Shown piece after piece: positions 55,868 to 62,266 of a DNA stretch of 64,000 nucleotides. The notes under the pieces are model-generated. The model did not search any database and was not told the DNA's origin. It saw only the letters and a list, made by a program, of their open reading frames with translations. Both the position numbers and the translations under genes were made by a program. Source of the DNA: an uncultured Planctomycetota bacterium. GTDB taxonomy: Bacteria > Planctomycetota > Planctomycetia > Pirellulales > Thermoguttaceae. The stretch is taken from NCBI GenBank assembly GCA_900317365.1, contig ONGM01000174.1:1-64000 (forward strand), given 5' to 3'. The number at the start of each line of letters is the position of its first letter. The stretch's first letter is position 1.

Positions 55868-56716
55868 ATGGCTTCTGAAGAAGAAAGAACAGAACAGGCG
55901 ACGCCGAAGAAGCGTCAAGAGGCGCGTTCGCGCGGAGAAATTACGCGGAGTCCCGACGTTGTTTCCGCGTTTGGCGCGTTAGGCGTTGTCGCGTTCGCAG
56001 GACTTGCGCTTCATTCGGTCGGCGTATTTGCCGTCGACGCGTTTCGCGGGGGCTTTTCCGGCTCCTTCGCGATTCGGAGCGAGGACTACGAATTCGCCGC
56101 CGTATTGGAGCGCGCGTTTCAGGGGACGCTGTGGAAACTGACGCCCTTTTTGATTGTTGTCGCGCTCGCGCTTATCGCCGCCGAATTGACGCAAACGCGT
56201 TTTCTTTTTCTTCCGAATAAACTTCGCCCCGATTTTAATCGACTCAATCCCTTGCGCGGTCTTTCGAGAATGTTGACGTGGGGATCGCTGACGCAGTCCC
56301 TCTGGACTCTCGCAAAGTGCGCGATCCTTCTTGTAATCGCCTTGACCGCGATTCGCGTTGAAAGCGATTCCGCAATAGCGCTCGCGCAAGGCGAGGCAGG
56401 CGAGGTCGTCGCGTTTATCGAGCGACTTCTATTGCGCGTTTCCTATCGGATATGCTTCGCCCTCGTCGTCTTCGCCGCGCTCGATTACGCCGCGCGACGC
56501 TGGAAGTACGAACGCGATCTGAGAATGACGCAGCAGGAACTCCGCGACGAAATGAAAGAGGAAGGCGGCGCCGCCAAACGCGGAGGGAGACGACGCGGAT
56601 CCCTCGATACGACGACCGCCGTTGAAACGACGGCGCCAACTCGTCCCGCCTCGTCGCAACGCCAGGCGCGCGACCCGAGAGAAAAGAAAGACGCTGCGAA
56701 TCGACGAACGCGTTAA
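55868..56716 (+). CDS. flhB: FlhB/type III export-family membrane protein without autocleavage domain
   Basis: This 282-residue protein has the characteristic FlhB start (SEEERTEQATPKKRQEARSRGEI), four hydrophobic segments (about 33-55, 92-106, 148-162, 190-207) and FNRLNPLRGLSRML. It also has the beginning of the cytoplasmic linker, RWKYERDLRMTQQELRDEMKEE. The family then continues with about 120 residues holding the NPTH self-cleavage site that switches export substrates. Here the sequence instead ends in about 50 low-complexity residues (GGRRRGSLD...). NPTH is not seen in other frames. It is isolated from flagellar genes, so it may be decayed, non-flagellar or paired with a separate C-domain protein. 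Confidence 0.85.
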   Translation: MASEEERTEQATPKKRQEARSRGEITRSPDVVSAFGALGVVAFAGLALHSVGVFAVDAFRGGFSGSFAIRSEDYEFAAVLERAFQGTLWKLTPFLIVVALALIAAELTQTRFLFLPNKLRPDFNRLNPLRGLSRMLTWGSLTQSLWTLAKCAILLVIALTAIRVESDSAIALAQGEAGEVVAFIERLLLRVSYRICFALVVFAALDYAARRWKYERDLRMTQQELRDEMKEEGGAAKRGGRRRGSLDTTTAVETTAPTRPASSQRQARDPREKKDAANRRTR

Positions 56717-56865: not shown

Positions 56866-58182
56866 TCAGACGTCCCAGCCTTCGCGATGTTCCGTCTTAA
56901 TGAACGCGTTCGCGGCGTCGTTGTTGACGACTTTCATATTGTCGGCGTCCCATTCGAGCTTGACTTTGCCGGCGCGCAGAGACACGGCGCCAAGTTGGAC
57001 CGCTTCGGCGAGTCGACCGGCGTACTCGAAGTTGCAGAGCGGCGTCGATTTGCCGCCGTCGACAATCGCGTTGATCCATTCGCGGTGATGTCCCGGAGAC
57101 GCGGGAATCGTTTCCGCCGGACGTTCGTATTTCTCGTATTTGTCTTTCGGGAAGAGACGAATCGTGCCGTAGTCGGCTTCCAGGCATCCTTCGGACCCGA
57201 CAAAGATGACGCCCATCGCGATATTGTCAAGGTTGCGCTCCTTGATGACCGGCGGACGTTTGGCGCCGTCGTACCATGTGAGAGGCAGGGTCTTGCCGTT
57301 GTAGTCGAATTCGTATTTGCATTCGACGTCGAGAGGACAGCAGATACTGCTGATTTCGGAGTCGCAGGTAGCGTGGATCGTTTTGGGGAGCTTGAGATCG
57401 AGGGCCCAGAAGGGCAGGTCCATAAGGTGGCACGCCATATCGCCGAAGGTTCCGGTGCCGAAGGGCCAGTATCCGCGCCATGTAGCAGGCAGGTAGCAGG
57501 GATTGTAGTCAAGCCATTGCGCGGGACCGAGCCATTCGTTCCAGTGGATATTCTTGGGGACGTCGAATTTTTCGGTTTTGGAGGGTTCGGGATATCCTCC
57601 CCAACCTTTCGCGCACCAGACGTGAACTTCTTGAATATCGCCGATATCGCCGGCTTGCACGATTTCGACGACGCGTCGATAGTTAGCGGTCGCGTGGATA
57701 ATCGTCCCCATCTGGGTGGAGAGTTTCTTTTCCTTAGCGATTTTTTGCATATCGCGAATTTCGGCGACGTCGTGAGCGAGCGGTTTTTCGCAGAAGCATG
57801 GGATTCCGCGTTTCATAGCGGCCATAGCGGCGACGGCGTGGGTGTGGTCGGGCGTGCTGACGAGAACGGCGTCGAGAGATTTCATTTCGGCGAACATTTC
57901 TCGATAATCAAAGAAACGCTTCGCGTTGGGGAATTTTGCGCCTTGGGAGGCCAGGTTATTGTCGTCGACGTCGCAGAGACCGGCGATTTCGACGAGTTCC
58001 CCGCTGTCGCCGAGGAGTTCCTGGATATTGCCGGCGCCGCGTCCTGCGATCCCGATGATAGCGACTTGCAGTTTCGAATTTGCGCCTTGCGCGCGAAGGA
58101 GTCCCGGCGCGCTAAAGGACGAGGAAAGCGCCGCGATCGACGCTGCGGACGTTTTCAAAAATTGACGACGATTGAATGTCAT
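56866..58182 (-). CDS. Tat-exported Gfo/Idh/MocA family oxidoreductase (second copy)
   Basis: The 438-residue protein starts at ATG 58182 after AGGAG. The Tat signal FNRRQFLKTSAASIAAL (Arg5-Arg6) is followed by the Rossmann fold (LQVAIIGIAGRGAGNIQEL), the family Lys motif CEKPLAHDV and a C-terminal substrate domain (NIHWNEWLGPAQWLDYNPCY, FGDMACHLMDLPFWAL). It is only distantly similar to the copy at 25475 and belongs to a different subgroup. It acts in the periplasm, probably on a sugar or inositol derivative; the substrate is unknown. Confidence 0.93.
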   Translation of the reverse strand: MTFNRRQFLKTSAASIAALSSSFSAPGLLRAQGANSKLQVAIIGIAGRGAGNIQELLGDSGELVEIAGLCDVDDNNLASQGAKFPNAKRFFDYREMFAEMKSLDAVLVSTPDHTHAVAAMAAMKRGIPCFCEKPLAHDVAEIRDMQKIAKEKKLSTQMGTIIHATANYRRVVEIVQAGDIGDIQEVHVWCAKGWGGYPEPSKTEKFDVPKNIHWNEWLGPAQWLDYNPCYLPATWRGYWPFGTGTFGDMACHLMDLPFWALDLKLPKTIHATCDSEISSICCPLDVECKYEFDYNGKTLPLTWYDGAKRPPVIKERNLDNIAMGVIFVGSEGCLEADYGTIRLFPKDKYEKYERPAETIPASPGHHREWINAIVDGGKSTPLCNFEYAGRLAEAVQLGAVSLRAGKVKLEWDADNMKVVNNDAANAFIKTEHREGWDV

Positions 58183-58347
58183 TGAAGTAACTCCTAACGT
58201 ATGATGACGTGTGAGCGCCTCGATTGGAGACCGCTCGATAATTTCTGACGACGAAATGAACGTCGAATCGTCCGAACAGGATTCAATATACACGTTTGGG
58301 GGACGAATCTCAAGAGTCGGACGTAGCGCAGCGAATTTGTCCGTAGC

Positions 58348-59886
58348 CTACAATCGTTCGACATTCTCCGTTTTTTCGGGTTTCTTGAGCGCCGCGTTTA
58401 GAATATCGCGCGTTTCGATTTTGATTGGTTCGACGGTAAATTCGGGAACGTTATATGACTTGAAGCGCTCTCGGTTATGGTTTGGGTTCTTTTGCGGCAA
58501 AAGGAAGGGTTTCGACGCGACGCCGTTTTCGTCAACGTGCGCGAAATATAGCCTTGTGTAAAGACCGTCTTCTCGTCGAGAACTGAGGACGATCCATCTG
58601 CCGTTTGACGACCACGTATGGTAACTGTCGGAATTGTCGGAATCGAGTTCGTCCCACCTTCGTTCTTCTCCGGTTTGCAAATCTTTGATCCACAAGTCGG
58701 CCTCGGGTCGCCAGATGGGGAACGTTCCGCTTGCGGCGAGCGTGTAAACGAGGAATCTTCCGTCGGGCGAGACGCGCGGAAAGAGCGCGGAACGTTTGTT
58801 CGAGCTGGCGTCGACGACGAGTTCGGGATCGCCGAAAGATCGCGTCGATTCGTCGAACGTTCTCTTCATGACGTCGTATCGAAGATCGCCGGAGCGCTTT
58901 GCCATAGCCTCAATAAGCGCGTCGCGTTGAGTCGGCGCGTCCTCCAATTTGAAGTGAGCGCAACAGTAATAGAGGACGTTTCCGTCGGGGGACCAACTCG
59001 GAAAGGTTTCAAAATCTTCCGCAGAGTCGGTGATTTGGACGAGTTTATTCTTTTTAGCGTCGAAAAGGACAAGATCGGAGAACGCGTCGTACACCTCGAG
59101 TTTTTGCGTTGAGAGGGAATGAAAGGTTTGCCGGGTCATATTTGAGGAGAAAGCGACGAGGTCGCCGGTTGGTCGCCATGCGGGATACGAGCATGAAATT
59201 CCGGCGCTTTCGAGGAATCCGCCGACTTTTTTTACGGACTTTCCGTCGACGATTATTGTGCCGCCGTTCGTAGGATCCTCCGTGCGACGGTAATGAAAGA
59301 GGAACCGATCCGTCTTGCGATCTTGAAAGGAGTGGCAATTGACGCACGGGGACGAATTGGTAAAGCGGTTGTCGAGAAAGACGCGTTCTTCGTAAGACTC
59401 TAACGAGCGTTGCGCCAACGCGATGCGGTGAGCGTAGTCGTATCCCGGTTCGATGAGTCGATACGCGACGAATCCGTCGATCGGATCGGGTGAGACGGAA
59501 CACGTAATCGGCGCGAAACGAAACCATTTGCCGTCGCGTTTAACGTAGGAGGTTATCTGGAAAAAGGCGTCTTTATTTTTTTCCAAGAGGAAACGCCAAG
59601 ACTTTTCCGGCACGTCGACGACTTGTCCCTTGATCGTGAACACGCCGTCGTTTTCACCGCGAAATTCCGTAACGTAGTCGTCGCCGTCTTCTTCGATACG
59701 GAAATTTGCCGGCGCTATGTTGGGCGGAAAGACAACGTCTGAATAATCAGGGTAGACGGCGGGCGCGACTTCAAGTGTTTCAAAGGTTTGCGGCGCCGCC
59801 TTTGAGGAGCATCCGAACGCCAAAATCGCCGAGATAAGCGTTAATAACGACGTCAAGACGGTTCCGAAATCGTAGCGCGTATTCAT
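58348..59886 (-). CDS. lipoprotein with PD40 beta-propeller and one c-type haem motif
   Basis: The 512-residue protein has a lipobox (LAFGC, lipid Cys26), an N-terminal beta domain and a single haem c motif CVNCH (181-185). TolB-type propeller blades follow: YPAWRPTGDLVAFSSN, FPSWSPDGNVLYYCCA, FPRVSPDGRFLVYTLA and HTWSSNGRWIVLSSRR. It is exported and membrane-anchored. It follows the DUF6057-like membrane protein on the same strand (85 bp). The arrangement of propeller-haem lipoprotein next to a DUF6057 protein also appears, as far as I recall, in Bacteroidota, which suggests a functional pair. The activity is unknown. Confidence 0.8.
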   Translation of the reverse strand: MNTRYDFGTVLTSLLTLISAILAFGCSSKAAPQTFETLEVAPAVYPDYSDVVFPPNIAPANFRIEEDGDDYVTEFRGENDGVFTIKGQVVDVPEKSWRFLLEKNKDAFFQITSYVKRDGKWFRFAPITCSVSPDPIDGFVAYRLIEPGYDYAHRIALAQRSLESYEERVFLDNRFTNSSPCVNCHSFQDRKTDRFLFHYRRTEDPTNGGTIIVDGKSVKKVGGFLESAGISCSYPAWRPTGDLVAFSSNMTRQTFHSLSTQKLEVYDAFSDLVLFDAKKNKLVQITDSAEDFETFPSWSPDGNVLYYCCAHFKLEDAPTQRDALIEAMAKRSGDLRYDVMKRTFDESTRSFGDPELVVDASSNKRSALFPRVSPDGRFLVYTLAASGTFPIWRPEADLWIKDLQTGEERRWDELDSDNSDSYHTWSSNGRWIVLSSRREDGLYTRLYFAHVDENGVASKPFLLPQKNPNHNRERFKSYNVPEFTVEPIKIETRDILNAALKKPEKTENVERL

Positions 59887-59971
59887 GGAACAATTCCTTT
59901 GGGGCCTTTTACGTACGCCAAAAGGCGCGGTTGAGATTAGCCGATAAATAAACGTTCGTTAGTCGATCGCG

Positions 59972-62266
59972 TTAGTAGTGATGGAAAACGGATTCGTCGA
60001 CGCCAAACGCCCAATAAGTTCCTCGACAAAGATCGCGAATCGACGTCTGAACGTAAGGATCCGAGACAGTCGTTTGTTGAAGTTGTAAATTCATAAAATC
60101 CATAAAGGGCGTGAATCGTTTGACGAGGTCGTCGGAGAATTTATAGTCGCAGTTATTCCAATTTTCCCCGAAACGATTGAACCGCCAGGTCGCGTATCCT
60201 TCTTCGATCGCCCTAGGCGCGCCGCCGTTCGGATACAATTTCAGGTATTCGTCGGCGTAGTTTAAAAACTCGTCGACCTTCTTTTGAAGCAAGAGAGAAA
60301 CGAGAATGAGTTCTTTGCGTTCTTTCGAGCCCGCCTCAAACTCTTCCGATTTCACGATTCCGGCTAAGAAGACGAGATTGGGGAACGCTTTCAACGTCGC
60401 CGCGTTTTCAAAGGGTTTCATGTCGCGAATCTTCTCGACGGTCGCCTTGAGTTTAAGGACTTTTTCCGGGGCGACGTCGTATTTTTCGGCGGCGGATTCG
60501 ATCGATTCGGCGAGCTTTCTCGACTTGCGCTCGCTTTCAATTCGTTCGGCGATCGCCTCGTCGTGGTGAAAATCTCGGACCTTGTCGTAGAATCCGGGAG
60601 AATCCAGATACGCGAGACGTTCTCGCGCCCACTCTTTGTGGAAGAACGTGTCCGACAAGATGTTCAGATAGCGTCGCGCCAGCTTGTCTTCGCCGTTGAT
60701 TAGAGCGGCGAACGCCAGAACTTTGACGTCGTGGACGGAGCGGTCTTCCGCCGCGCATAGGTCGTTCATTGCGATTCGCGAGCCGATACCCGTTTGCCCC
60801 CAATAGCAATAGAGTTCGTCAACGATAGCGCGAACGGAGATATTCTCCGTGAGTCGCCTTTGATTGAAGAGGAAAATTTTCAACTGATAATAGCGCTCTT
60901 TATTGAGGGATCGCGTATAGTCTATGTCGGTAACGTCGAGGACGCCCATTCCGGCGACGGGTCGTGAAAAGGCGTCTTCAGCAAGTCTTCCGGTATAGTA
61001 GAGCGCGACGTTGCGAACCTGGGTCATTGCGTCGATAGGAAAAGGATTGGCGTCGTCGATTTCGAGGACTTTTTCCCATTCGGCGTTCGTTGCCGCGCGC
61101 GTCATTTTGAGGAGCTGAAGAAACCCGGTCGTGTGATACGCGGCGAGGAAAGTCGCGCCGCAGACGATCGCGGTCGTCGCCCAAACGAGTCGCGTTTCGC
61201 GTTTTGCGGCGTCGACTCGCGCTTGATTTTGAAGATTCTCAATTTCTCGCTTAATATCTTCCGGTTTAGGCTTGAATTTTCCGAGCGTTTGCTTGGAGTT
61301 GGCCTTGGTGAGTTTTTCAATAGCGCGTCGTTCAAGTTTTTCGCGGAGTCGTCGTTCTTTCGTTTGTTTTCGCGTTAATTTCGCCGACGAAACAGGCGCG
61401 AGCGCTCGAAGGGCAAAAATTCGCGACGCGGCGAAGAAAAGTGCGGTCAACAACGGGGCGAGCAACGCGCAACCATACGAGAAAAGCGCGTTCCAAGTCG
61501 TCATGTCGTATCGAACGTCTTCGATAATACCCGCCGTAAATATATTAACGGCGAGCGATCGCGCGTAATAGACGCGTTGGTAATAAATTATCGGAACGAG
61601 TATTCCCCAGAGGACTAGGAAGCCGGCTTGCGCCAACGCTTTTTTTCGGGACGCGTTTGCCGCCGTGCCTTCGAAGATCGCGCACAGCAAGGCGAAGAAA
61701 GGCGCCCAAAATCCGGCGAGCGGATAGACGGCGACGACAAAAATCATGGCGAAAGCGTACCGAACGCGCTTCGACGCAATCGAACGATAGCGATCAAATG
61801 CGAGCAACGTTGCGAAAAGGGAAATTGGATGGGCAAAATTGATCGCAATGTTGTAAGGCGTGTAAAGGAAAAAACCGATCCACGTAATCGAAACGGCGAC
61901 GCAACACGACGGGAGAAACGATAGCGCGCGAGCTAGGCGTTTAAACCCGAAAAGTTTTGCGCACAACAGATGGATTCCCAGAAGGAGCGTCGCGTAGATT
62001 ACGGCTCCTAGCAGCGGATAATAGGAAAACTGTAAGAGGAAGGATGAGAGCCAGCATAGCGCGCCGTCAGGCTCTTGCGCCCATCGCGTAAAGAACTCGA
62101 GGCGAGGAACAAAAAACGAGTTCTCTTGACAGGCGAATAAAAAATCGCCGTATCGAACGCCCCAGTAGTAGAGGAGGAACAGAAGAAAGGCAAGAGACGT
62201 CAGCGCGTCTCGAAAGGGTCGACCGTCTGAAGGAGCGGTCGAGGGCTTTGCGTCTGTTTCGGACAT
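59972..62266 (-). CDS. large polytopic membrane protein, DUF6057-like
   Basis: The 764-residue protein has about ten N-terminal transmembrane helices (for example TSLAFLLFLLYYWGV, LLGAVIYATLLLGIHLLCA, FAMIFVVAVYPLAGFWAPFF). A Lys/Arg-rich coiled segment (about 300-355, KLTRKQTKERRLREKLERR) precedes one more helix. The C-terminal 380 residues are soluble and helical, TPR-like: YLNILSDTFFHKEWARERLA and ELILVSLLLQKKVDEFLNY. The N-terminal pattern YWGVRYGDFLFACQENSFFV followed by a WLSSFLLQFSYYPLLGA helix resembles DUF6057. It is the first gene of a two-gene unit with the propeller-haem lipoprotein. Function is unknown. Confidence 0.75.
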   Translation of the reverse strand: MSETDAKPSTAPSDGRPFRDALTSLAFLLFLLYYWGVRYGDFLFACQENSFFVPRLEFFTRWAQEPDGALCWLSSFLLQFSYYPLLGAVIYATLLLGIHLLCAKLFGFKRLARALSFLPSCCVAVSITWIGFFLYTPYNIAINFAHPISLFATLLAFDRYRSIASKRVRYAFAMIFVVAVYPLAGFWAPFFALLCAIFEGTAANASRKKALAQAGFLVLWGILVPIIYYQRVYYARSLAVNIFTAGIIEDVRYDMTTWNALFSYGCALLAPLLTALFFAASRIFALRALAPVSSAKLTRKQTKERRLREKLERRAIEKLTKANSKQTLGKFKPKPEDIKREIENLQNQARVDAAKRETRLVWATTAIVCGATFLAAYHTTGFLQLLKMTRAATNAEWEKVLEIDDANPFPIDAMTQVRNVALYYTGRLAEDAFSRPVAGMGVLDVTDIDYTRSLNKERYYQLKIFLFNQRRLTENISVRAIVDELYCYWGQTGIGSRIAMNDLCAAEDRSVHDVKVLAFAALINGEDKLARRYLNILSDTFFHKEWARERLAYLDSPGFYDKVRDFHHDEAIAERIESERKSRKLAESIESAAEKYDVAPEKVLKLKATVEKIRDMKPFENAATLKAFPNLVFLAGIVKSEEFEAGSKERKELILVSLLLQKKVDEFLNYADEYLKLYPNGGAPRAIEEGYATWRFNRFGENWNNCDYKFSDDLVKRFTPFMDFMNLQLQQTTVSDPYVQTSIRDLCRGTYWAFGVDESVFHHY

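Follow-up and report, generated by a model that had tools for sequence, protein, structure and literature searches.

A DUF6057 integral membrane protein and a lipoprotein with a six-bladed propeller and a predicted haem c site are encoded by adjacent genes that, as their pairing across loci supports, form a conserved, undescribed two-gene system of gut Bacteroidales and gut Planctomycetes. In the window (the whole 64,000-nucleotide stretch of planctomycete DNA that we analysed), the DUF6057 gene comes first (764 amino acids; 59972-62266, minus strand), and the lipoprotein gene (512 amino acids; 58348-59886, minus strand) lies 85 bp downstream. The initial annotation had described these neighbouring same-strand genes and their coordinates correctly, and the same association that it gave for Bacteroidota was borne out by 73 adjacent DUF6057-propeller pairs in 64 loci, with constant order and strand and a median gap of 4 bp. 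The window's own genome carries a second such pair. Taken together, this second pair, the 73 pairs across all loci and the invariance of a CxNCH motif in the propeller argue that the pairing did not arise by chance.

Scanning for the propeller with three query proteins returned 62 loci. They came from Planctomycetes of gut and rumen and from many Bacteroidales, and one lay on a Chitinivibrionales contig. Because the scan patterns included CxNCH, and the loci were therefore partly selected for the motif, searches begun from DUF6057 alone served as the unbiased test of pairing. In these searches the propeller was next door to 13 of the 15 DUF6057 genes, lying immediately downstream in 10 out of 12 Bacteroidota and 3 out of 3 Planctomycetota genes; the gene-neighbourhood survey that had been proposed as a check thus upheld the association. 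The distance matrices of the two proteins were correlated (r 0.89, against values of 0.14 or less in 999 permutations). Three loci had a propeller with no DUF6057 gene nearby (L028, L030 and L045, the last a short contig), and DUF6057 scored above the cut-off in only 2 of 199 genomes in a sample of the planctomycete phylum. Tandem and convergent pairs both occurred, and single genomes carried multiple divergent paralogues, as many as five copies. Prevotella communis E15-14 and Parabacteroides sp. An277 are cultured strains with the pair. Weak PF19529 matches to proteins of about 409 amino acids in many Bacteroidota were considered as distant relatives and rejected: these proteins have FtsW/RodA-like sequences, and the matches stem from membrane composition.

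In a propeller tree rooted on a distant family of CxNCH propellers, with weak support at some deep forks, 21 planctomycete propellers formed one clade (SH-aLRT 99) within Bacteroidota. This tree is read most simply as a single main transfer, in which gut Planctomycetes received the propeller from Bacteroidales. One planctomycete from outside the gut group (L012/L062) fell elsewhere in the tree, on a long branch.

Sequence and models give good support to the anatomy of the pair. The membrane protein belongs to DUF6057 (PF19529), a family previously without a known function and with no mention found in the literature searched; its Pfam match (E 4.5e-55 over 731 residues) scored 188 bits against a gathering cut-off of 29.8 and covered positions 8-563 of the 569 in the profile. 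Its AlphaFold2 model (pLDDT 89.9), conservation and positive-inside loops indicate a membrane part (residues 16-375; 61142-62221, minus strand), which is followed by a C-terminal domain (residues 380-764; 59975-61129, minus strand) that is TPR-like in the model, in agreement with the polytopic protein with a soluble TPR-like tail that had been annotated. The signal helix of the lipoprotein ends in ILAFGCSS and fits a PROSITE-type lipobox, with C26 as its cysteine (59809-59811, minus strand; the column is Cys in 84% of the family after weighting). Family conservation marks an N-terminal domain (residues 35-135; 59482-59784, minus strand) with a conserved PDY...P.NIAPLNF, and the six-bladed TolB-type propeller occupies residues 139-487 (58426-59472, minus strand), as judged from its AlphaFold2 model (pLDDT 93.4) and VIA alignment; Pfam matched PD40 over three stretches (E 1.6e-14). 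The lipoprotein contains exactly one CxxCH, the predicted haem c attachment motif CVNCH at residues 181-185 (59332-59346, minus strand).

Downstream of the lipoprotein gene, profile matches identified a Gfo/Idh/MocA oxidoreductase with a Tat signal (56866-58293, minus strand). We considered it as an electron partner and rejected it, as no neighbour of that kind recurred in the cluster survey; it is probably outside the two-gene unit. Elsewhere in the window, an FlhB-like gene (55868-56716, plus strand) stops at 282 amino acids, and the NPTH autocleavage region was absent from every frame just downstream.

The closest solved fold of the propeller was TolB (VIA, Z 26.5, 277 residues aligned, 3.2 Å), and the propeller of hydrazine synthase alpha also matched (VIA, Z 23.9, 287 residues aligned, 3.6 Å). 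Like TolB of the Tol-Pal system, the lipoprotein has an extracytoplasmic six-bladed PD40 propeller; unlike TolB, it has a CxNCH haem motif, a lipid anchor and a DUF6057 partner. It scored 33.7 bits against the TolB equivalog TIGR02800 (NCBIfam), below the cut-off of 343, and no Pfam family for the TolB N-terminal domain appeared beside the propeller among matches up to E 1. With HzsA (5c2v) it shares a six-bladed propeller in what would be a c-type haem protein. The CxxCH that binds haem alpha-I in HzsA has His 587 as its histidine, and Tyr591 is a ligand (PMC12607021). That CxxCH lies outside the aligned range 55-431, whereas the motif of the lipoprotein is in a propeller strand. Membership of the lipoprotein in hydrazine synthase alpha was rejected because HZS_alpha (PF18582) is missing from it; this domain was found in other CcsBA-linked proteins. 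PHROGs gave no match, and a literature search on haem and PD40/TolB-like propellers returned nothing relevant.

CxNCH was invariant in all 64 aligned members of the near family, collected with scan patterns that partly selected for the motif, and also in 11 distant relatives. DSSP on the model placed CVNCH inside strand 181-187, at the position of the YPAW, FPSW, FPRV and YHTW strands of other blades; elsewhere in PD40 blades this strand carries PxWSPDG. The motif of the distant family, CANCHSFSxDGK, is likewise a PD40 repeat (the PxWSPDGK strand) bearing two cysteines and a histidine. H185 and H423 were the only histidines conserved across the near and distant families; the latter (SYHTW; 58618-58620, minus strand), with conservation of 0.97 in the near and 1.0 in the distant family, is a candidate second haem ligand.

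A cytochrome c synthase gene (PF01578) was found in all 18 hosts tested, the window's genome included, which makes haem c on the propeller plausible. The window's genome and two other planctomycete hosts gave no ResB match, but PF01578 was found in each of them. Among Bacteroidales, the synthase was present in 35 out of 35 close propeller carriers versus 205 out of 260 others (p 4e-4, a value that ignores shared ancestry among genomes). The lipoprotein thus has the CxxCH motif, export signal and host cytochrome c synthase by which c-type cytochromes are broadly recognised. From the annotated lipoprotein with one haem c and a TolB-type propeller, the lipobox, the single CVNCH and PD40 were confirmed, and the haem c itself stands as plausible. 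Alternatively, CxNCH might be a metal-ion site or a redox disulfide, without haem, in a TolB-like structural lipoprotein. We consider this very unlikely: although the fold is closest to TolB and the Pfam matches of the lipoprotein up to E 1 included no class I cytochrome c domain (Cytochrom_C or a relative of it), the protein is exported, CxNCH is invariant, the synthase is present in the hosts of all close carriers, and distant relatives adjoin cytochrome bd or chorismatase genes, with chorismatases in turn adjoining di-haem genes.

Searching DUF6057 by sequence against solved structures gave no match, and Foldseek gave none with E <0.001. VIA comparison of its membrane part yielded weak resemblance to GT-C glycosyltransferases of the PMT, STT3 and AftA kinds (Pmt4, Z 7.2; STT3A, Z 6.7; Pmt2, Z 6.5; AftA, Z 6.0); the GT-C-type matches, AglB among them, ranged over Z 5.2-7.2, all below 8 and in the range that VIA warns about, with the top Z of 7.2 extending over 260 residues. 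GT-C enzymes carry a catalytic acid in the first outer loop. By contrast, the first outer loop of DUF6057 (residues 39-67) had no column with Asp plus Glu above 0.6, and alignment conservation revealed no conserved His or Cys anywhere in the protein. With no conserved loop acid and no conserved His or Cys, DUF6057 would not qualify as a typical GT-C enzyme, nor as a haem carrier. The electron-transfer or sensing role that the initial annotation had put forward is therefore sustained in part: haem c on the propeller is plausible, but DUF6057 itself probably does not carry electrons.

These matches also bear on whether DUF6057 is an active GT-C glycosyltransferase, with the lipoprotein as acceptor or helper in building or modifying envelope glycans. 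Eight of the nine membrane-protein rows in the VIA table were GT-C-type, the combination of TPRs with GT-C is the layout of the eukaryotic TMTC O-mannosyltransferases, and the immediate neighbours of the pair in Bacteroidales include SusCD, GH97, GH10, GH43 and GH2 genes. However, the first outer loop has no conserved Asp or Glu, Z scores of 5-7 fall within the tool's warning range, and mean identity is low in DUF6057 while the propeller is conserved, so we regard glycosyl transfer as decidedly unlikely. Charged residues are strongly conserved in the propeller, with almost none in DUF6057. Near-invariant in the propeller are R143, R200, R438, E264, D267 and N479, of which the charged ones point to an active site.

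The tail of DUF6057 matched TPR proteins in VIA over about residues 390-605 and is predicted from Lys/Arg-rich loops to be extracytoplasmic. Several distant propellers that lack DUF6057 have TPRs in the same polypeptide, a fusion that suggests docking of the DUF6057 TPR domain on the propeller. Distant CxNCH propellers were seen at L179-L187, several with C-terminal TPRs: one adjoins a sulfatase gene (L179), another precedes the gene for cytochrome bd subunit I (L181), and at L180 they stand in triple tandem.

Gene neighbours offer a further reading, a polysaccharide-utilisation sensor whose propeller would pick up a glycan fragment or a gas at the envelope and signal via DUF6057. SusCD and GH genes adjoin the pair in several Bacteroidales loci and are sparser there from the fourth gene outward, and the multiple divergent paralogues per genome would also fit such sensors. 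Yet the pair has no constant sensor or transcription-factor partner, glycan binding needs no haem, and planctomycete copies adjoin glgX or a sulfate-assimilation cluster instead; we judge this reading unlikely. GlgX lies beside DUF6057 in 14 planctomycete rows, which are 13 distinct loci (the window and L013 being one place), and this adjacency was absent in Bacteroidota loci; it fits vertical synteny. The second pair of the window's genome (L011:319-4122, contig C141) directly adjoins genes for a siroheme synthase and a sulfite-reductase-like protein, together with an AprA-like flavoprotein gene and sulfate ABC transporter genes, a sulfate-assimilation cluster as read from sequence.

Neighbour clustering placed an FkbO/Hyg5-type chorismatase beside the pair in several Bacteroidales, and another stands beside the DUF6057-less distant propellers L186 and L187. 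Chorismatases, which convert chorismate to aromatic acids, have so far been known from natural-product and pigment pathways. A PF21168 search of 295 Bacteroidales genomes found 26 chorismatase carriers, 19 of which also had the propeller. Chorismatase was thus present in 19 out of 38 propeller genomes versus 7 out of 257 others (p 4e-14), and in Planctomycetes in 4 out of 8 propeller genomes versus 4 out of 191 others (p 7e-5), both p-values again ignoring shared ancestry. In many, but not all, of the Bacteroidales loci, the chorismatase adjoins the propeller, cytochrome c synthase or di-haem propeller/MauG-like proteins. The link is not universal, since no chorismatase was found in the window's own genome.

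Several other haem-motif genes were observed around the chorismatases and cytochrome c synthases. A protein of about 600 amino acids with two CxxCH motifs is encoded directly upstream of chorismatase at L226:4195-5985, L228, L230, L232, L237 and L240; at L226 it combines a propeller with a MauG/RoxA-like part, and at L228 an IclR regulator gene precedes it. Another Bacteroidales chorismatase (L242:6212-7726) adjoins a PSCyt2/PSD1 protein, a type usually seen in Planctomycetes. Large Bacteroidales proteins with two CxxCH motifs are encoded beside cytochrome c synthase at L190:641-4648, L232:9273-13271 and L237:3499-7494. Those of L190 and L232 combine NPCBM and FGE-sulfatase-type domains with HZS_alpha, the middle domain of hydrazine synthase alpha: hydrazine-synthase-like haem domains outside anammox bacteria. 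In Prevotella-like genomes, a di-haem gene and an imelysin gene adjoin cytochrome c synthase (L189:6094-9150 and L192:7705-10644), the former encoding a di-haem oxidoreductase (DHOR), putative in L192.

We prefer the explanation that the propeller is a haem c enzyme or sensor and DUF6057 the membrane/TPR scaffold that holds it; taken as a whole it is tentative, at somewhat below an even chance. The two genes would together specify a single complex outside the cytoplasm, to which the second would contribute an exported, usually lipid-anchored six-bladed propeller with one covalent haem c. CxNCH would attach this haem to the innermost strand of a single blade, probably at the mouth of the central tunnel. 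H185 would be its proximal ligand, and H423 a likely second, axial one. The ring of strongly conserved residues at the tunnel mouth suggests a catalytic or ligand-sensing haem over a simple electron shuttle. If this placement is right, the lipoprotein resembles cytochrome cd1 nitrite reductase in having a haem atop a propeller; the latter has eight blades, a non-covalent d1 haem and a separate cytochrome c domain. DUF6057 would serve as a scaffold in the inner membrane, its GT-C-like fold degenerate, and its extracytoplasmic TPR domain would hold the propeller. The likely chemistry would be haem-dependent, either redox work on a small ligand or its sensing. This ligand might be a hydroxybenzoate derived from chorismate, and the chemistry would be used by gut bacteria near loci for glycan degradation. 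More specifically, the pair might represent a haem enzyme class not known before, with haem c on the inner strand of a propeller, a membrane/TPR scaffold and a chorismatase-made aromatic acid, in anaerobic gut bacteria, but this narrower proposal is doubtful.

If the preferred reading is right, anaerobic gut bacteria have a widespread haem protein, not described before, on the outer side of the inner membrane, common to two phyla through lateral transfer. It would also give a handle on the function of DUF6057 and tie chorismatases to periplasmic haem chemistry.
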